From Bradyrhizobium sp. Arg816 (GTDB taxonomy: Bacteria > Pseudomonadota > Alphaproteobacteria > Rhizobiales > Xanthobacteraceae): a DNA stretch of 64,000 bases. The notes beneath the pieces are model-generated. The model worked only from the letters and a program-made list of their open reading frames with translations. It was not told the origin of the DNA and made no database searches. The stretch lies in NCBI RefSeq assembly GCF_029989365.1, contig NZ_JAPRAQ010000022.1, positions 62,001 through 126,000 on the forward strand, in the 5' to 3' direction. A program made the position numbers and the translations under genes. Below are positions 1 through 52,166 of the stretch, piece by piece. Every line of letters begins with the position of its first letter. Position 1 is the first letter of the stretch.

Positions 1-7
1 GTCGTCG

Positions 8-77
8 CAAATGGTGGGCACGCTTCCGCCTTCGCTCTCCGAGCTACGGCGGACAAGTCGCTTTGCCCACCCTACGA
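8..77. repeat. Palindromic intergenic repeat (GGTGGGCA family)
   Basis: The arms GGTGGGCA near 14 and TGCCCACC near 65 form an inverted repeat around a GC-rich centre. The element lies directly downstream of the minus-strand acetyltransferase. Its layout fits the short palindromic elements seen repeatedly in this window, but I find no second copy of this exact family here. Confidence 0.5.
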
Positions 78-84
78 GACTGTC

Positions 85-615
85 CTACTTGGTTGGCACG
101 GTGCTCGCGCCCTCGCCGAGGTCGCGTTGCATCATCACCGTGTCGAGCCAGCGGCCGAATTTCAGGCCAACATTGGGATGCGTGCCGATCATCTTGAAAC
201 CGCCGCGCGTGTGCACGCCGATCGAACCGGCATTGGCGGAATCGCCGATCACCGCGATCATCTGGCGGAAGCCGCGCGCCTCGCATTCGGTGATCAGCCG
301 CTCCAGCAGCAACGAGCCGATGCCGCGGCGGTGGAACGAGGGATCGAGATAGATCGAGTTCTCGACCGTGAAGCGGTAGGCCGGCCGCGGCCGGTAGGCG
401 CCGGCATAGGCATAGCCGGCGACGCGGCCGTCGAGGATGGCGACGAAATAGGGATAGCCGCCGTCGATCAATGCGCGGTAGCGGCGCGTCATCTCGGCGA
501 GGTCGGGCGGTTCCAGCTCGAACGTCGCCGTGCCCTCGCGAACGGCCTGCTGGTAGATGGCGGTGATGGCGGGAAGGTCGGCCTCAATGGCGGGCCTGAT
601 CTCAGGTGCGGACAT
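85..615 (-). CDS. GNAT N-acetyltransferase, phosphinothricin acetyltransferase (PAT)-like
   Basis: A 176-residue single-domain GNAT protein that would transfer acetyl from acetyl-CoA to a small amine. The N-terminus IRPAIEADLPAITAIYQQAV, the mid-region YAYAGAYRPRPAYRFTVENS, the acetyl-CoA loop RRGIGSLLLERL and the C-terminal KFGRWLDTVMMQRDL match the PAT/bar-type subfamily (amino-acid-like antibiotics such as phosphinothricin, or methionine sulfoximine). The start ATG at 615 has no clear Shine-Dalgarno sequence. The gene stands alone, followed by repeats. The subfamily is confident from motif order; the true substrate is unknown, since many PAT homologues act on methionine derivatives rather than antibiotics. 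Confidence 0.85.
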   Translation of the reverse strand: MSAPEIRPAIEADLPAITAIYQQAVREGTATFELEPPDLAEMTRRYRALIDGGYPYFVAILDGRVAGYAYAGAYRPRPAYRFTVENSIYLDPSFHRRGIGSLLLERLITECEARGFRQMIAVIGDSANAGSIGVHTRGGFKMIGTHPNVGLKFGRWLDTVMMQRDLGEGASTVPTK

Positions 616-6900: not shown

Positions 6901-8085
6901 ATGCTCTCCACCCCCAGTTCCTCATTCCACGAGGCGTACCAGGCCCAGATCGCGTCCGGCGCGATCGAGCCCGATGCTGCGCAGGCCGAAATCGCCGAAG
7001 CCTATGCGGCCCTCGACCACCGGCTCGCGAATTACAAGCCGCAGCGCAAGCAGGGTCTGCTCAGTCGTCTGTTCAGCGGCGACAAGGACGAGGCGCCGCG
7101 CGGGCTCTACGTCCATGGCGAAGTCGGCCGCGGCAAGACCATGCTGATGGATCTGTTCTTCCAGCACAGTACCGTCGAGCACAAGCGCCGCGCGCATTTC
7201 CACGAGTTCATGGCGGAAGCGCATGAGCGCATCTACGATTATCGCCAGGGCATCTCGCGCGGCGAGATCGCCGATGGCGACGTCATCGCGCTGACCGCGA
7301 ACGCGATCTTCGAGGAAAGCTGGCTGCTCTGCTTCGACGAATTCCACGTCACCGACATCGCGGACGCGATGATCCTCGGCCGCCTGTTCGCAAAACTGTT
7401 CGAGCTCGGCACCGTGGTCGTCGCGACCTCCAACGTTGCGCCCGACGATCTCTACAAAGGCGGCTTGAACCGTTCGCTGTTCCTGCCCTTCATCAAGCAG
7501 ATCACCGACCACATGGACGTGCTGCGGCTCGATGCGCGCACGGATTTCCGCCTGGAAAAGCTTCAGGGCGTGCCGATGTGGCTGACGCCGGCCGACGGCG
7601 ATGCGGACGCAGCCCTCGACCGCGCCTGGTCGAAGATGACCGGCGGCGCCAAATGCAAGTCGCGCAATATTTCGTTCAAGGGCCGCATCCTGCACGTGCC
7701 GTGCTCGGCCCATGGTGTGGCGCGGTTCGGATTTGCGGATCTCTGCGAAAAACCGCTCGGCGCGTCCGACTACCTCCGCCTCGCGCACGACTATCACACC
7801 ATCCTGGTCGACCATATTCCAGTGATGGATTTTTCCCAGCGCAACGCCGCCAAGCGTTTCATCACGCTGATCGATACGCTCTATGACAATGCCGTGAAGC
7901 TGATGGCCTCGGCTGATGCCAATCCGATCTCGCTCTACCTCGCCCACGAGGGCAACGAGGCCATGGAGTTCAAGCGGACGGCGTCGCGCCTGATCGAAAT
8001 GAGCTCGGAATCCTATCTGGCGCTGCCTCACGGCCGCAAGGATTCCACCGCCAGCGGCTCCACCAAGGGCCTGGTGGAGACTTAA
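6901..8085 (+). CDS. zapE: Cell division protein ZapE (AFG1-like AAA ATPase)
   Basis: A 394-residue AFG1/ZapE ATPase. Walker A is GEVGRGKTMLMDLFF (about residues 81-95) and Walker B LLCFDEFHVTDIADAM (about 141-156). Conserved AFG1 blocks follow, including VVATSNVAPDDLYKGGLNR and FIKQITDHMDVLRLD. ZapE contacts FtsZ and constricts Z-rings in E. coli; the mitochondrial homologue AFG1/LACE1 works in respiratory-chain quality control. Here the gene precedes malate dehydrogenase, the common alphaproteobacterial arrangement. The start ATG 6901 follows GGCGGAAAAGAGCC. Confidence 0.93.
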   Translation: MLSTPSSSFHEAYQAQIASGAIEPDAAQAEIAEAYAALDHRLANYKPQRKQGLLSRLFSGDKDEAPRGLYVHGEVGRGKTMLMDLFFQHSTVEHKRRAHFHEFMAEAHERIYDYRQGISRGEIADGDVIALTANAIFEESWLLCFDEFHVTDIADAMILGRLFAKLFELGTVVVATSNVAPDDLYKGGLNRSLFLPFIKQITDHMDVLRLDARTDFRLEKLQGVPMWLTPADGDADAALDRAWSKMTGGAKCKSRNISFKGRILHVPCSAHGVARFGFADLCEKPLGASDYLRLAHDYHTILVDHIPVMDFSQRNAAKRFITLIDTLYDNAVKLMASADANPISLYLAHEGNEAMEFKRTASRLIEMSSESYLALPHGRKDSTASGSTKGLVET

Positions 8086-46692: not shown

Positions 46693-47607
46693 ATGCCCTT
46701 CTTCAAGAATCTCTCCGCCTATGACGATCGCTCCGCGCGCCTTGCCGGCATCGCGCTGATGGTGCTGTCGATCTTCATGTTCTCGTTCGGCGACGCCATG
46801 GGCAAGTTCCTGGTCGGGACGTATTCCGTGGGGCAGCTCTTGTTCCTGCGCGCCTGCGCGGCGCTGCTGCTGCTGTCGCCGCTGGTCTGGCGGCAGCGTC
46901 ACCAGTTCCTGCATCTGGAGCGGCCGGGCCTGCAGCTGTTTCGCGTCGTGCTGTCGACGCTGGAAGTGGCCGCCTTCTTCCTCGCGGCAGTCTATCTGCC
47001 GCTCGCCGACGTCATCACCTATTATCTCGCGGGCCCCATTTTCGTCACCGCGATGTCGGCGATCTTTCTGGGCGAGAAGGTCGGCTGGCGGCGCTGGACG
47101 GCGATCCTGATCGGCTTCTGCGGCGTGCTGATCGCGCTGCGGCCGTCGGCGCAGACGGTCAGCCTGCCGGCGCTGATTGCGCTCGGCGGCAGTCTGTCGT
47201 TTGCGACGCTGATGCTGATCACGCGCAGCCTGCGCAAGACGCCCGACATCGTGATGGCGTCGTCGCAATTCATCGGCACGTTCTCGCTGGGTGCTGTGCT
47301 GTCGGCATTCCACTGGGTGCCGCCGACACCGGGCAGCCTCGTGATCTTCGCAATGGCGGGTTGCGTCTCGGTGACGGCGCTGTTCTGCGTCAACCGCTCG
47401 CTCAAGCTGGCACCGGCCAGCGTCGTGGTGCCCTACCAATATTCGATGATCGTCTGGGCCGTGATCTTCGGCTTCGTCGTGTTCGGCGACGTGCCGTCGA
47501 TTGCCACCATCATCGGCGCCGCCATCATCATCGGCGCCGGGTTCTACATTTACCTGCGCGAACGCGATCTCGGCCGCCCGAGCGCTGAGGTCAATCCGCC
47601 GGCGTAG
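46693..47607 (+). CDS. DMT-superfamily transporter (EamA, ten-helix)
   Basis: A 304-residue inner-membrane exporter with two EamA repeats of about five helices each. The first reads GIALMVLSIFMFSFGDAMGK and LFLRACAALLLLSPLVW; the second begins PALIALGGSLSFATLMLITR and ends AIIIGAGFYIYLRERDLG. YYLAGPIFVTAMSAIFLGEK is a classic EamA stretch. ATG 46693 (MPFFKNLSAYDDRS) is used although the ribosome-binding site is weak. Divergent from the MaoC gene; substrate unknown. Confidence 0.9.
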   Translation: MPFFKNLSAYDDRSARLAGIALMVLSIFMFSFGDAMGKFLVGTYSVGQLLFLRACAALLLLSPLVWRQRHQFLHLERPGLQLFRVVLSTLEVAAFFLAAVYLPLADVITYYLAGPIFVTAMSAIFLGEKVGWRRWTAILIGFCGVLIALRPSAQTVSLPALIALGGSLSFATLMLITRSLRKTPDIVMASSQFIGTFSLGAVLSAFHWVPPTPGSLVIFAMAGCVSVTALFCVNRSLKLAPASVVVPYQYSMIVWAVIFGFVVFGDVPSIATIIGAAIIIGAGFYIYLRERDLGRPSAEVNPPA

Positions 47608-47611
47608 CCCT

Positions 47612-47820
47612 TACCCTCCCCTGGAGGGGGAGGGTCGCGCGCGCGAAGCGCGAGCGGGGTGGGGTGACGGTCTCTCCGCGAAGATGGTGTTTCGGTCGGC
47701 AGTGATAGGGTGAGACCATTGCTGTGGCTGCACCCCACCCCGCTGCGCATTCCGCTTCGCTGCATGCGCATCGACCCACGAGCGAGCTACGCTCGTCTCG
47801 GACCCCTCCAGGGGAGGGTG
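47612..47820. repeat. Long composite palindrome (CACCCTCCCC family)
   Basis: CCCTCCCCTGGAGGGGGAGGGT (first 20 nt pair locally) and GGGGTGGGGTG on the left are mirrored on the right by CACCCCACCCC and CCCCTCCAGGGGAGGGTG. Inner arms GCGCGAAGCGCGAGCG and CGAGCTACGCTCG add substructure. It occupies the whole 223-nt gap between convergent genes. Confidence 0.75.
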
Positions 47821-47830
47821 TCACCGCGCC

Positions 47831-48424
47831 CTACCTCATCCGTCGCGCACTGCTCCAGTTCTTCAGCGACGACCACACGCCGCGCGACAGGCGGAAGCAA
47901 TCGACCGGCGTGGACGAGCCCAGCGCGAGGAAGCGATGCAGCTGGACGCCGCTCCACTGGAAGCCGCACTTCTCCAGCACGTTGCGCGAGGCCGGATTGG
48001 TGACGCGCGCGCCCGCATAGAGATTATCCTCCTCGAACTCCTCGAAGAAGAAGTCGATCGCGCCGCGCGCGGCCTCGGTGGCAAAGCCCTGGCCCCAATG
48101 CTCGACGCCGAGCCAGTAGCCGAGCTCGGCATTGTCGGGCGTGGAGCGGTCGATGCCGACGATGCCGACCGGCCCGGTGTCGTGCTCGATCAGGAACACG
48201 GTCTCGCTGCCGAGCGCGGCGGTGGCGCGGACGAATTCGACGGCGTCGTCCTGCGAATAGGGGTGGGGAAGGCGGCGGGTGTTTTCCGCGACACGGCGGT
48301 CGTTGGCGAGGTGGGCGATGGTCCTGACGTCGGCGAGAGTCGGGCGCCGCAACGTCAGCCGCTCGGTGGCGACGACATCAGGTCTCGCCTCCCGCAAGGT
48401 CGCGCTCGAGAAATCCTGCAACAT
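47831..48424 (-). CDS. GNAT acetyltransferase, RimJ/RimL-like
   Basis: A 197-residue N-acetyltransferase of the ribosomal-protein-alanine type. The opening TERLTLRRPTLADVRTIAHL, the core ELGYWLGVEHWGQGFATEAA (acetyl-CoA loop) and VTNPASRNVLEKCGFQWSGV are hallmarks. ATG 48424 (MLQDFSSATLREARPD) is chosen; the frame is open upstream to 48553 but runs through the rpmA terminator. The target may be a protein N-terminus, an amino sugar or an antibiotic; it cannot be told. It is the last gene downstream of rpmA. Confidence 0.85.
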   Translation of the reverse strand: MLQDFSSATLREARPDVVATERLTLRRPTLADVRTIAHLANDRRVAENTRRLPHPYSQDDAVEFVRATAALGSETVFLIEHDTGPVGIVGIDRSTPDNAELGYWLGVEHWGQGFATEAARGAIDFFFEEFEEDNLYAGARVTNPASRNVLEKCGFQWSGVQLHRFLALGSSTPVDCFRLSRGVWSSLKNWSSARRMR

Positions 48425-48935: not shown

Positions 48936-49325
48936 TTATGCGGCGTCGGCTTCCTTGTCGGCTTCCTTCGCGACCTTCTCCCGCTTCGGACGCGGGCCCT
49001 TGGTGGGCTTGGCGCCGTCCGTCAGGATCTCGGAGATGCGGAGGACCGTAATCTCGTCGCGATAGCCGCGCTTGCGGCGCGAATTCTTGCGGCGGCGCTT
49101 CTTGAACGCGATGACCTTGGGTCCGCGCTTGTGGTCAAGCACCTCGACCGCAACGGACGCACCGGCGACCGTCGGAATGCCCAGGACCGGCGTGTCGCCG
49201 CCGACCACCAGAACTTCATTCAGCTGTATGATCGAGCCGACTTCGCCTTCGATCTTGCCTACTTCGAGAACATCATCCGGCACGACGCGGTATTGCTTGC
49301 CGCCGGTTTTGATGACTGCGAACAT
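48936..49325 (-). CDS. rplU: 50S ribosomal protein L21
   Basis: A 129-residue 23S-rRNA-binding protein. [20 protein letters not shown] is the L21 signature; the basic stretch [18 protein letters not shown] follows. A Lys/Glu/Ala-rich C-terminal extension ([16 protein letters not shown]) goes beyond the ~103-residue E. coli form, as is usual in alphaproteobacteria. It is transcribed from the promoter at 49492-49519 through a ~160-nt leader. Confidence 0.98.
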
Positions 49326-49656: not shown

Positions 49657-50799
49657 ATGGCAACGGACGAGTTGGTCAAGACGACGGGCATCGCGCTCCA
49701 CGGCGCCGAGCGGCTGCCCTCGGTGAACGTCGACAGTTTCAACATCGAGATGAAGGACGAGGACGGCTTCCTCGGCGACCGCGCCAGCAAGGGCGCGTTT
49801 CGCGAGATCCTCGAGCGCTGGCGCAAGCCCTTGCGCAAGACCGGGGAGGACCCGTTCGGCAAGGAGCCCTCGGAAAACATCAGCAAGAAGACGCTGGACG
49901 CCATCCTGGTCGGCGACGACACCGAGGCCTGGGCCGTGGTGCATAGCGCCATCGAGGACTTTGCCCAGGAGCTCGCTTACGTCACCCGTCGCTTCCTCAA
50001 GAGCAAGGCCTGGGCCAAGACCGAGCGCATCGTCGTCGGCGGCGGCTTCCGCGATTCCCGGCTCGGCGAGCTCGCGATCGCGCGCACCGAGATCATCCTC
50101 AAGGCCGAGGACTTCAAGATCGACATGGTGCCGATCCGCCATCACCCCGACGAAGCCGGCCTGCTCGGCACGCTGCATCTGGCGCCGTCATGGATCTTCG
50201 AGGCCCATGACAGCATCCTCGCCGTCGACATCGGCGGCACCAACATCCGCTGCGGCCTGGTGGAGACCGGCTGGAAGAAGGCCAAGGACCTCTCGAAGGC
50301 CAAGGTCGTGAAATCCGAGCTGTGGCGTCATGCCGATGACGAGCCGACCCGCGAGGGCGCGGTGAAGCGGCTCATCAAGATGCTGAAGGGGCTGATCACC
50401 GAGGCCGAGAAAGAGGGCTTCAAGCTCGCGCCGTTCATCGGCATCGCCTGTCCCGGCGTTATCAACGCGGACGGCTCGATCGAGAAGGGCGCACAGAACC
50501 TGCCGGGCAATTGGGAGAGCAGCAAGTTCAACCTGCCGGCGAGCCTGATCGAGGGCATCCCCGTGATCGGCGAGCACGACACCGCGATCCTGATGCACAA
50601 TGACGGCGTGGTTCAGGGCCTCTCCGAGGTGCCGTTCATGCAGGACGTCGATCGCTGGGGCGTGCTGACCATCGGCACCGGGCTCGGCAATGCCCGCTTC
50701 ACCAACCGCCGCAAGGACAACGGCAACGGAAAAGACCGGGATTTGACTGAGAACGGCAAGAAAAAGGGCAAGGAAAGCAGCAAGAACGACAAGGAGTAA
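49657..50799 (+). CDS. ROK-family kinase homologue with circularly permuted motif order
   Basis: A 380-residue actin-fold protein similar to ROK sugar kinases, but with the halves exchanged. In normal ROK proteins DxGGT comes first, then the catalytic ND, the GTGxG phosphate motif, and last the adenosine-site GGG and AGxxGA. Here the last part comes first: RIVVGGGFRDSRLGELAI (~127-144) and HHPDEAGLLGTLHLA (~164-178). Then follow AVDIGGTNIRCGLVE (~189-203), GIACPGVIN (~265), GEHDTAIL with the putative catalytic Asp (~307), and IGTGLGNARF (~342-351). The C-terminus is a Lys/Asn/Glu tail. No ROK zinc cysteines are seen. A longer in-frame stretch upstream lacks homology; ATG 49657 fits. Substrate unknown. 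Confidence 0.8.
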   Translation: MATDELVKTTGIALHGAERLPSVNVDSFNIEMKDEDGFLGDRASKGAFREILERWRKPLRKTGEDPFGKEPSENISKKTLDAILVGDDTEAWAVVHSAIEDFAQELAYVTRRFLKSKAWAKTERIVVGGGFRDSRLGELAIARTEIILKAEDFKIDMVPIRHHPDEAGLLGTLHLAPSWIFEAHDSILAVDIGGTNIRCGLVETGWKKAKDLSKAKVVKSELWRHADDEPTREGAVKRLIKMLKGLITEAEKEGFKLAPFIGIACPGVINADGSIEKGAQNLPGNWESSKFNLPASLIEGIPVIGEHDTAILMHNDGVVQGLSEVPFMQDVDRWGVLTIGTGLGNARFTNRRKDNGNGKDRDLTENGKKKGKESSKNDKE

Positions 50800-50975: not shown

Positions 50976-51839
50976 TTAGCTCCAGCCAATCCGCTGAAAG
51001 AACGCCGCGATCTCCGCGGCTGCGCGATCCGGATCTTCCCGATGCGGGAAGTGGCCGACGCCCGGAAACATCGCGAGATCGAGATCGCCAAACGTCTCGC
51101 CGAGACGATCGGTCCAGGCATAGGGAAACAGCGGGTCGTGCTCGGCCCAGCGCACGCAGGTCGGCACGTCGATCGGCGGCAGTTTCGGCGCCTCGCCCTT
51201 CATCATCGCGACCCGCCCGGCATGCGAGGCGCGATAATGCGCAAATCCGCCGGCGAGATTGCCTTCTCTGAAGAAATTGTCGGCGAAGGCGTCGAGAACA
51301 TCGTCGAAGGCGCTCTTCTGATGCGCCCAGCCCTTGAGGAAGTGACCGATATAGAGCCGGCAGCTGTCGCGGCTCGCGCCGACGAGCGCCGGAGCCAGCT
51401 CCATCTGGTGGAAGGACTGATACCAGATGTGGTTGAGCCTATCCGGCGCCGCCATGCGCGGCCCGATGCCGGGATAGACGAAGTCGAAGAAAAACAGCCC
51501 CGCGAGCCGCTCGGGCTGCTGCCGGGCCAAAGGCTGCATCACGGCGCCGCCGACATCGTGGCCGACCACGGCGAATCGGTCGATGCCGAGCCCCTCCATC
51601 AGCGCCAGCATGTCGTCCGCATGGCCGTCCGGCCCAAAAGGCCCGTCCGGCTTGTCGCTGTCGCCGAAGCCGCGCAGATCGGGCGCGATCAGCATGAATC
51701 GGTCCGAAAGCCTGGACATCACCGGCTCCCAGGTCAGCCAGAATTCCGGCCAGCCATGCAGCAAAAGCAGCGGTTTGCCGCTGCCAGCGCGGACCAGGTG
51801 CAAATCGGCACCATTGGCCTTGATCGTGAGATGCTCCAC
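50976..51839 (-). CDS. Alpha/beta hydrolase, epoxide hydrolase / haloalkane dehalogenase type
   Basis: A 287-residue cytoplasmic hydrolase. The oxyanion motif LLLLHGWPEFW (~24-34), nucleophile Asp95 in VVGHDVGGAVMQ, acidic residue in RWAEHDPLFPYAW and His263 in FPGVGHFPHRED make a complete Asp-His-Asp triad of the epoxide hydrolase group. The Arg pair that follows the nucleophile in fluoroacetate dehalogenases is absent (DVGG). The start is GTG 51839, set by GGGAGGA seven bases upstream; the frame extends further but without homology. Confidence 0.88.
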   Translation of the reverse strand: MEHLTIKANGADLHLVRAGSGKPLLLLHGWPEFWLTWEPVMSRLSDRFMLIAPDLRGFGDSDKPDGPFGPDGHADDMLALMEGLGIDRFAVVGHDVGGAVMQPLARQQPERLAGLFFFDFVYPGIGPRMAAPDRLNHIWYQSFHQMELAPALVGASRDSCRLYIGHFLKGWAHQKSAFDDVLDAFADNFFREGNLAGGFAHYRASHAGRVAMMKGEAPKLPPIDVPTCVRWAEHDPLFPYAWTDRLGETFGDLDLAMFPGVGHFPHREDPDRAAAEIAAFFQRIGWS

Positions 51840-51858
51840 GGCAGTTCCTCCCGGCGGT

Positions 51859-51957
51859 GAGAGCGTTTTCGAGCGAAGTGGACACCGGTTCGCGTCAGGA
51901 AAACGCGTCAAAACAAGAATCCGGAGCTCCGTTCCGATTCACCGGAGCGGAAACGGC
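51859..51957. repeat. Dispersed repeat (GAGCGTTTTCGAGCGAAGTGG module)
   Basis: AGCGTTTTCGAGCGAAGTGG, ACACCGGTTCGCGTCAGGAA and AACGCGTCAAAACAAGAATC follow each other, then a CCGTTCCGATTC...CGGAGCGGAAACGG dyad. I recognise this string as a common interspersed element in Bradyrhizobium-type genomes. It fills the region between the hydrolase and the tRNA. Confidence 0.65.
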
Positions 51958-52076: not shown

Positions 52077-52166
52077 GGAGAGGTGGCAGAGTGGTTGAAT
52101 GCACCGCACTCGAAATGCGGCATAGGTGCAAGCCTATCGGGGGTTCGAATCCCTCCCTCTCCGCCA
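52077..52166 (+). tRNA. tRNA-Ser (anticodon CGA)
   Basis: A 90-nt class II tRNA with encoded CCA. The acceptor stem GGAGAGG/CCTCTCC has a G discriminator. The anticodon stem CCGCA/TGCGG carries loop CTCGAAA (anticodon 52111-52113, reading UCG). A long variable arm (ATAGG/CCTAT) and T-arm GGGGG-TTCGAAT-CCCTC region are present. Serine tRNAs are frequent integration targets, but I see no integrase or duplicated 3' end in the following 11.8 kb. Confidence 0.97.

Follow-up and report, generated by a model that had tools for sequence, protein, structure and literature searches.

The analyzed window, a stretch of 64,000 nucleotides from Bradyrhizobium sp. Arg816, encodes a 380-residue protein that is best read as a predicted circularly permuted ROK-type sugar kinase, probably active, of a kind often tied to stress and trehalose metabolism. 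Permuted ROK proteins form a conserved and real family, apparently unstudied, and are not a sequencing accident. The features of the gene are shown in Table 1.

Table 1. Features of the predicted permuted ROK gene and its neighbors (window coordinates; residue numbers in parentheses)
Feature	Position	Strand	Basis or remark
CDS, predicted circularly permuted ROK-type kinase, 380 aa	49657..50799	+	Open reading frame (ATG at 49657, stop codon 50797-50799), profile matches, fold predictions
His15-Gly16	49699..49704	+	First conserved residues past the new N-terminus; candidate ExGH histidine
Residues 19-184, counterpart of the canonical ROK C-terminal half	49711..50208	+	Fragment fold, VIA match; NanK 220-286 match
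GGG (128-130), presumed adenosine motif	50038..50046	+	Invariant in 30 aligned members
PDEAGLLG (164-171), where the canonical C-terminal helix begins	50146..50169	+	NanK match, family alignment, hhalign
Residues 177-190, linker of canonical C-terminus to canonical N-terminus	50185..50226	+	Family alignment, hhalign
DIGGTN (191-196), phosphate-1 and Mg motif	50227..50244	+	Pfam ROK match
HND (314-316), catalytic base Asp316	50596..50604	+	30/30 members; role from PsNagK D105 (part of PMC10031466)
GTGLGN (340-345), phosphate-2 motif	50674..50691	+	Invariant in 30 aligned members
NARFTN (345-350), second hairpin strand; about here the conserved chain stops	50689..50706	+	Predicted strand 345-350
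Lys/Asn/Gly-rich tail, predicted disordered, varying among relatives	50707..50796	+	pLDDT <50 for 354-380
rplU (ribosomal protein L21), divergent neighbor	48936..49325	−	Identified by eye; upstream in 70 distinct genes (peptide pattern)
Alpha/beta-hydrolase-like gene, convergent with the permuted ROK gene	50976-51911	−	Named by eye

The permutation was originally proposed because GGG and PDEAGLLG precede DIGGTN, CPGV, and GTGLGN, and this order can be read directly in the protein, where CPGV occupies residues 265-268 and HND lies between it and GTGLGN. We take GGG to be the adenosine motif from general knowledge of the family. Of the motifs listed earlier, GEHD (305-308) is not catalytic; the ND that serves in catalysis belongs to HND. 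The canonical architecture, with DxGGT, ND, GTGxG, ExGH/zinc, GGG, and DEAGL-G following one another in one chain, was absent in 30/30 aligned members of the family. Because all 30 have GGG before DxGGT and end no more than 50 residues from GTGLGN, the permuted order is not due to chance. The chain does stop soon past GTGxG, as had been claimed for this protein: in 127 genes, the stretch that begins with the initial G of GTGLGN and ends at the C-terminus was 12 to 51 residues long. The Lys/Asn tail (351-380) is real, but its length varies between relatives and it is incidental to the permutation. An extended protein with a second DxGGT, which had been raised as an alternative, was not found; the longer open frame, starting at 49072, crosses rplU in antisense. 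The only tRNA found in the window by ARAGORN was a tRNA-Ser (CGA) at 52077-52166, and no repeats of 20 bases or more were present within 47450-48100.

Profile searches matched both halves to canonical ROK proteins in swapped order. The Pfam ROK profile aligned residues 188-354 with its positions 2-145 of 294 (E 1.6e-7; 31.6 bits vs. a cut-off of 22.9), and it matched 29 of the 30 aligned members at E ≤0.1. The NCBIfam NanK profile aligned residues 108-176 with its positions 220-286 of 288 (E 0.007); 23 of the 30 members matched NanK at E up to 1, the matched stretch being known for the first member only. The DxGGT-containing part also matched the polyphosphate glucokinase profile (NF045942) at E 1.3e-4; that family differs in having the canonical order and a profile of 242 positions.

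Profile-to-profile comparisons were done by hhalign against a canonical profile of 15 ROK proteins taken from other genomes, 14 belonging to one family and one to another. The native family profile gave two alignments in swapped order, one of 186-346 with 2-147 (E 8e-16) and one of 76-179 with 208-306 (E 0.0085). After rotation it aligned in a single piece, 2-342 to 2-306, over 297 columns. The continuous alignment across the junction that the original prediction called for was therefore obtained with the rotated profile, but single-sequence, Pfam, NCBIfam, and PDB searches stayed partial: the rotated single sequence had no full-length match in NCBIfam, Pfam, or PDB, with scores barely altered, and the rotated profile had none in PDB. 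The global hhalign score was 119.1 for the rotated and 110.9 for the native profile; the local score showed no gain (113.4 rotated vs. 115.0 native). When the N block of the rotated profile was shuffled, 1 of 50 profiles reached template position 295 or beyond, and the real profile reached 305. The N block alone scored 27.4, a value that 1 of 200 column-shuffled controls matched or exceeded. Judged by sequence, the similarity to the C-terminal half is weak. Weak PDB sequence matches to Cake proteins, a free serine kinase, and calbindin were taken as chance; a match to 2yhw, which starts within its expression tag, was left unused. A ROK signature pattern was dropped as unreliable since it matched 0 of 18 canonical proteins. 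The mixed MAFFT alignment of the permuted family with canonical proteins kept only nine of the latter.

The whole protein was modeled from an alignment of 81 sequences (the window protein and 80 others, nearly all from Bradyrhizobium), and residues 19-184 were also predicted alone; almost only Bradyrhizobium sequences entered either alignment. The whole model had a pLDDT of 75.5 and a pTM of 0.77. In the VIA comparison, ROK chains lying over model residues 181-352 aligned with about their first 150 residues: 2yhy with residues 405..554 (Z 10.4, rmsd 2.8, 147 aligned), 7p9l with 0..143 (Z 9.3), and 3vov with 1..143 (Z 8.2); another ROK row, 7p7i, extended to model residue 371 at an rmsd of 7.6. 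The fragment had a pLDDT of 73.1 and a pTM of 0.76, and its top 18 VIA rows were all ROK proteins or glucokinases, matched over their C-terminal halves. Among these were 2gup (134..277, Z 7.3, rmsd 3.5, 128 aligned), 5nck (144..277, Z 7.2), 3vgk (141..303, Z 7.1), and 6q26 (145..281), with Z values (about 7) in the middling range of the tool's own scale. Thus, the C-terminal part resembles ROK N-terminal halves and the N-terminal part resembles ROK C-terminal halves, as the proposed permutation requires, and the prediction did not give the two unrelated domains that had been named as contrary evidence. We relied on VIA for structure since Foldseek ranked Ssz1 and hexokinases first for the whole model at very large rmsd, and its best E for the fragment was 0.83 (2qm1 was second, E 1.0, prob 0.30). 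Strand 23-28 was present in the full model and not in the fragment, which is devoid of the C-terminal hairpin; this loss is as expected if the two pair in the predicted fold.

In canonical proteins, the GTGxG hairpin continues into the ExGH/zinc segment. The chain of the window protein ends after GTGLGN-ARFTNR, and it starts with a short low-confidence segment before His15-Gly16. The cut is within the large lobe, past the GTGxG hairpin and ahead of the sugar-binding ExGH segment. The small lobe of PsNagK consists of residues 1-104 and 291-303 and its large lobe of residues 105-290, according to part of the text of PMC10031466. By these limits, both canonical termini are in one lobe, and the new termini are in the other, near the sugar site. 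The same portion of that article has the PsNagK sugar held by S78, N104, D105, E154, H157, and D187, and reports mutagenesis of D6, D105, and T132 and a KM for GlcNAc raised above 50 mM in E154Q.

D191, D316, and T341 of the window protein align with D6, D105, and T132 of PsNagK, and together with GGG they are invariant in the 30-member alignment, which includes the window copy. The catalytic ND and the Mg-binding Asp of DxGG are thus retained, with HND in 30/30 members; position 195 is mostly Thr, with some Ser and one Arg. The zinc cysteines are missing, as had been pointed out: the protein has no cysteines other than C199 and C265, and the motif CxCGxxGC occurs in 0/30 permuted members and in 15/18 canonical comparison proteins. 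From the latter count, some canonical ROK members likewise lack it. His15 is invariant in the 30 aligned members and present in 128/128 distinct genes located by pattern. Three positions ahead of it, Glu occurs in 1/128 genes, and the sugar-binding Glu of ExGH is by this count not conserved in the permuted family, although the alignment there is uncertain. Because hhalign and MAFFT disagree on where His15 falls relative to ExGH, its equivalence to PsNagK H157 is a guess.

The Arg816 genome has one permuted gene and four other ROK-profile matches. A 262-residue ROK protein of the same genome (L005), which we presume to be of the polyphosphate glucokinase kind, is likewise without the zinc motif.

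Whole-genome searches covered the strain's own genome and overlapping samples of its order, class, and phylum. Full-length copies were present in 38/297 genomes of the order (any match in 44), 16/385 of the class (any match in 17), and 22/398 of the phylum (any match in 45, the other 23 being weak partial matches); five of the phylum genomes with full-length copies lay outside Alphaproteobacteria. Fifteen of the 23 weak matches were examined (L191-L205), and all were ROK proteins with DxGGT ahead of GTGxG. An unpermuted close relative was not found with either the window protein or the 30-member alignment in these samples (1 + 297 + 385 + 398 genomes, overlapping). Among named genomes of all phyla, at least 577 stretches were confirmed, with the motif order checked in the 30 aligned members. 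The best 80 of these were nearly all from Bradyrhizobium, and the closest named relative among them was Bradyrhizobium liaoningense (97% identical). Plasmid records gave 207 matches in nine genera, mostly Rhizobium and Sinorhizobium with one Roseateles; 204 covered at least 80% of the query. Among the 40 plasmid matches listed, most annotated ones were called "ROK family protein" and one "glucokinase." Viral contigs contained 29 pattern stretches with no relative among them, and phages gave no match.

In a midpoint-rooted tree of 82 of the 137 distinct proteins, from which 55 rplU-linked proteins had been thinned and in which bootstrap had not settled, the Bradyrhizobium rows made one supported group (100/100) that contained both rplU-linked and motif-bearing copies. 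Two genomes, G194 (L188/L190) and G171 (L189/L140), had two copies each, one by rplU without a sigma-EcfG motif and one elsewhere with it, which suggests duplication with split regulation. In G171, a 40-residue fragment (C151:167219-167338) matched the permuted protein at residues 3-42 and lay some 3.6 kb away from a complete copy; it is perhaps a decayed partial duplicate. Only fragments of the permuted gene were matched in G230 (C1:11001-11354 and C7:38761-39034) and G227 (C36:101477-101653), and these may be decaying copies. A contig titled "Frankia sp. RB7" (L057) encoded a copy with 89% identity to the window protein, among the best 80 of at least 577; the record is probably mislabeled or contaminated.

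The survey of homologues beside rplU that had been recommended showed rplU upstream in 70 distinct genes, as detected by a peptide pattern. We compared 42 loci (the window and L150-L190) with flanks of mostly 6-9 kb. The trehalose gene otsB was near the permuted gene in six (L150, L158, L162, L165, L167, and L186) and was not seen in 36; four of the six also had otsA and a GH15/TREH_N gene. Pfam, run in the trehalose clusters on the L162 genes and the L165 otsB, confirmed among neighbors in all ten proteins: two GH15, two otsA, five otsB, and one PfkB kinase (between otsA and otsB in L162). In L165 (7301-13935), the GH15, otsA, PfkB-type, otsB, and permuted genes are consecutive on one strand. 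L162 (1576-8574) has the same order and direction, with an opposite-strand ORF (6937-7431) separating otsB from the permuted gene. Each has the appearance of a trehalose cluster that includes two sugar kinases. In the other four loci, otsB is divergent from the permuted gene. Since the Arg816 genome has a single otsB in 9.7 Mb, on a contig other than that of the permuted gene, chance alone would seldom give such neighbors. A ferritin-like family, named from the L151 annotation and by eye, was near the permuted gene in 5/42 loci. L151 itself, plasmid p195_2 of Bradyrhizobium sp. 195, was typed as conjugative and has ferritin-like, PRC-barrel, and Hsp20 genes near the permuted gene and an EcfG motif upstream of it.

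The sigma-EcfG consensus is GGAAC-N17-20-GTT (part of PMC6599016). We scanned the sense strand of the 150 bp upstream of each gene for GGAAC-N16/17-[CT]GTT. The motif was present in 24/68 distinct genes without a detected upstream rplU, at −55 to −103 in 22 of the 24, and was not found in 44/68; Bradyrhizobium genes are among these 68, and the pattern may have missed an rplU in some of them. It was present in 0/70 genes with upstream rplU, including the window gene, which had neither a strict nor a relaxed motif within 250 bp upstream. Random windows gave 25/8709 (0.3%), and the antisense control gave 7/68, itself above that background. A first scan with a wider window had found 18/42 loci, 4/80 Bradyrhizobium loci, and 41/2520 random windows. 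In Bradyrhizobium diazoefficiens, OtsA/OtsB trehalose synthesis is controlled by sigma-EcfG, and OtsA condenses UDP-glucose with glucose-6-phosphate (both from part of PMC8092242). Set beside that system as described there, the permuted gene adjoins otsB/otsA in other lineages and many of its copies have EcfG-type motifs; the window copy is without the motif.

A canonical chain would in effect have been closed by the linker at about residues 177-190, which would join the C-terminal helix to the DxGGT strand, and reopened within the large lobe, at the point where the GTGxG hairpin (strand 345-350) would lead on to the ExGH/zinc segment. The protein should take the usual two-lobe fold and bind Mg-ATP by DIGGTN, GTGLGN, and GGG, with Asp316 as the putative base in phosphorylation of a sugar hydroxyl. 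That the zinc cysteines and the ExGH Glu have been lost, and that His15 is invariant at the new N-terminus, imply remodeling of the sugar pocket. From the EcfG motif in many relatives and the otsB/otsA/GH15 neighbors of some, we infer a kinase that acts on glucose or a similar sugar as trehalose is turned over under stress and that might make glucose-6-phosphate for OtsA or feed or recycle glucose. Ordinary glucokinase activity is not assured, because the ExGH Glu is absent and E154Q of PsNagK had so high a KM in the section of PMC10031466 cited above.

That the protein is permuted is, in our judgment, close to certain. The contrary reading is an actin fold in ordinary order, whose first lobe has lost its motifs and whose second resembles the ROK first lobe through pseudo-symmetry. 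It can point to sequential alignments that lay model residues 20-332 over whole actin folds: 3djc (Z 9.4, 184 aligned), human glucokinase 1v4s (Z 8.2, 220 aligned), and the Parabacteroides glucokinase 3mcp (21..331, Z 8.5, 205 aligned). We read these native-order rows of the predicted model as the pseudo-symmetry of the two lobes. Since the N-terminal part matches ROK C-terminal halves both in sequence and in the best VIA rows, and GGG and PDEAGLLG are placed as in the canonical C-terminal half, an ordinary order is very improbable. Even less credit is due to an assembly, frameshift, or rearrangement artifact in this one genome, a reading that nothing in the analysis favored and that is refuted by the copies in independent genomes of the order, class, and phylum samples, by the at least 577 stretches in named genomes, and by 204 plasmid records.

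Function leaves more room for alternatives. Kinase activity, taken by itself, is quite probable, and a permuted ROK fold that is also an active kinase is likely. The non-conserved ExGH Glu and the absence of the zinc motif in all 30 members would also suit a permuted fold without efficient catalysis, serving as a sensor of sugar or sugar phosphate or as a partner protein, like ROK repressors minus the DNA-binding domain; such repressors do occur among the structural matches of the fragment. A sensor has no need of a catalytic base, and yet Asp316, the Mg-binding Asp191, Thr341, and GGG are invariant in the 30 members; moreover, the Pfam scan found no DNA-binding domain, so we consider this rival unlikely. 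An active permuted kinase might instead act on another sugar or a polyol, its link to trehalose being shared stress regulation only. This is in keeping with the remodeled ExGH region and with the generic stress neighbors, namely the ferritin-like family and the PRC-barrel and Hsp20 genes of L151, but otsB is the most recurrent sugar-related neighbor in the 42-locus comparison and is adjacent and co-directional in L165. We regard a substrate of this kind as possible though on the unlikely side; it overlaps with the kinase part of our preferred explanation, and the likelihoods given here do not add up to unity. For the permuted kinase, a role in glucose or trehalose metabolism is a serious possibility, short of an even chance. 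Only tentatively do we propose the full account, in which an undescribed and widespread family of permuted kinases, cut in the large lobe by the sugar site, would be a dedicated general-stress enzyme of Alphaproteobacteria, with a rebuilt pocket that feeds or recycles glucose for trehalose, and would have been freed from stress control beside rplU in Bradyrhizobium.

The permuted family shares DxGGT, CPG, ND, GTGxG, GGG, and DEAGL-G with the ROK kinases (PF00480; NagK, NanK, ROK glucokinase, and BglK), and both halves agree with these in predicted fold. It differs from them in its permuted order, in the absence of the zinc cysteines, in the non-conserved Glu of ExGH, and, in the MAFFT alignment, in an extra segment at about residues 58-82 and longer loops between DxGGT and ND. 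Kinases of one fold group may be related by circular permutation, as part of PMC1079889 states, and that part names no permuted ROK or hexokinase; the main text is without the word "ROK." "Permut" is absent from the main text of a 2025 review on the glucose kinase superfamily (PMC12696579), and "ROK" from that of PMC8092242. A search of titles and the starts of abstracts in the open-access literature, to which subscription papers mostly do not belong, found no permuted ROK protein. Nor was there anything on this protein in the covered portions of the literature on ROK proteins or glucokinase with trehalose, PhyR, RpoE2, or the stress response, including PMC9611204 and PMC6180224.

Beyond the permutation originally predicted, the analysis adds that the arrangement is a conserved family, that other lineages show links to sigma-EcfG and trehalose, and that the sugar-binding Glu is lost. 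A natural permutation through one lobe indicates that an actin-fold kinase tolerates new termini beside its active site, and the family offers diverse material for studying their effect. The annotation "ROK family protein" gives no hint of the topology or of the altered sugar site. In rhizobia, the link of the permuted gene to sigma-EcfG and trehalose would be testable in a stress pathway relevant to symbiosis.
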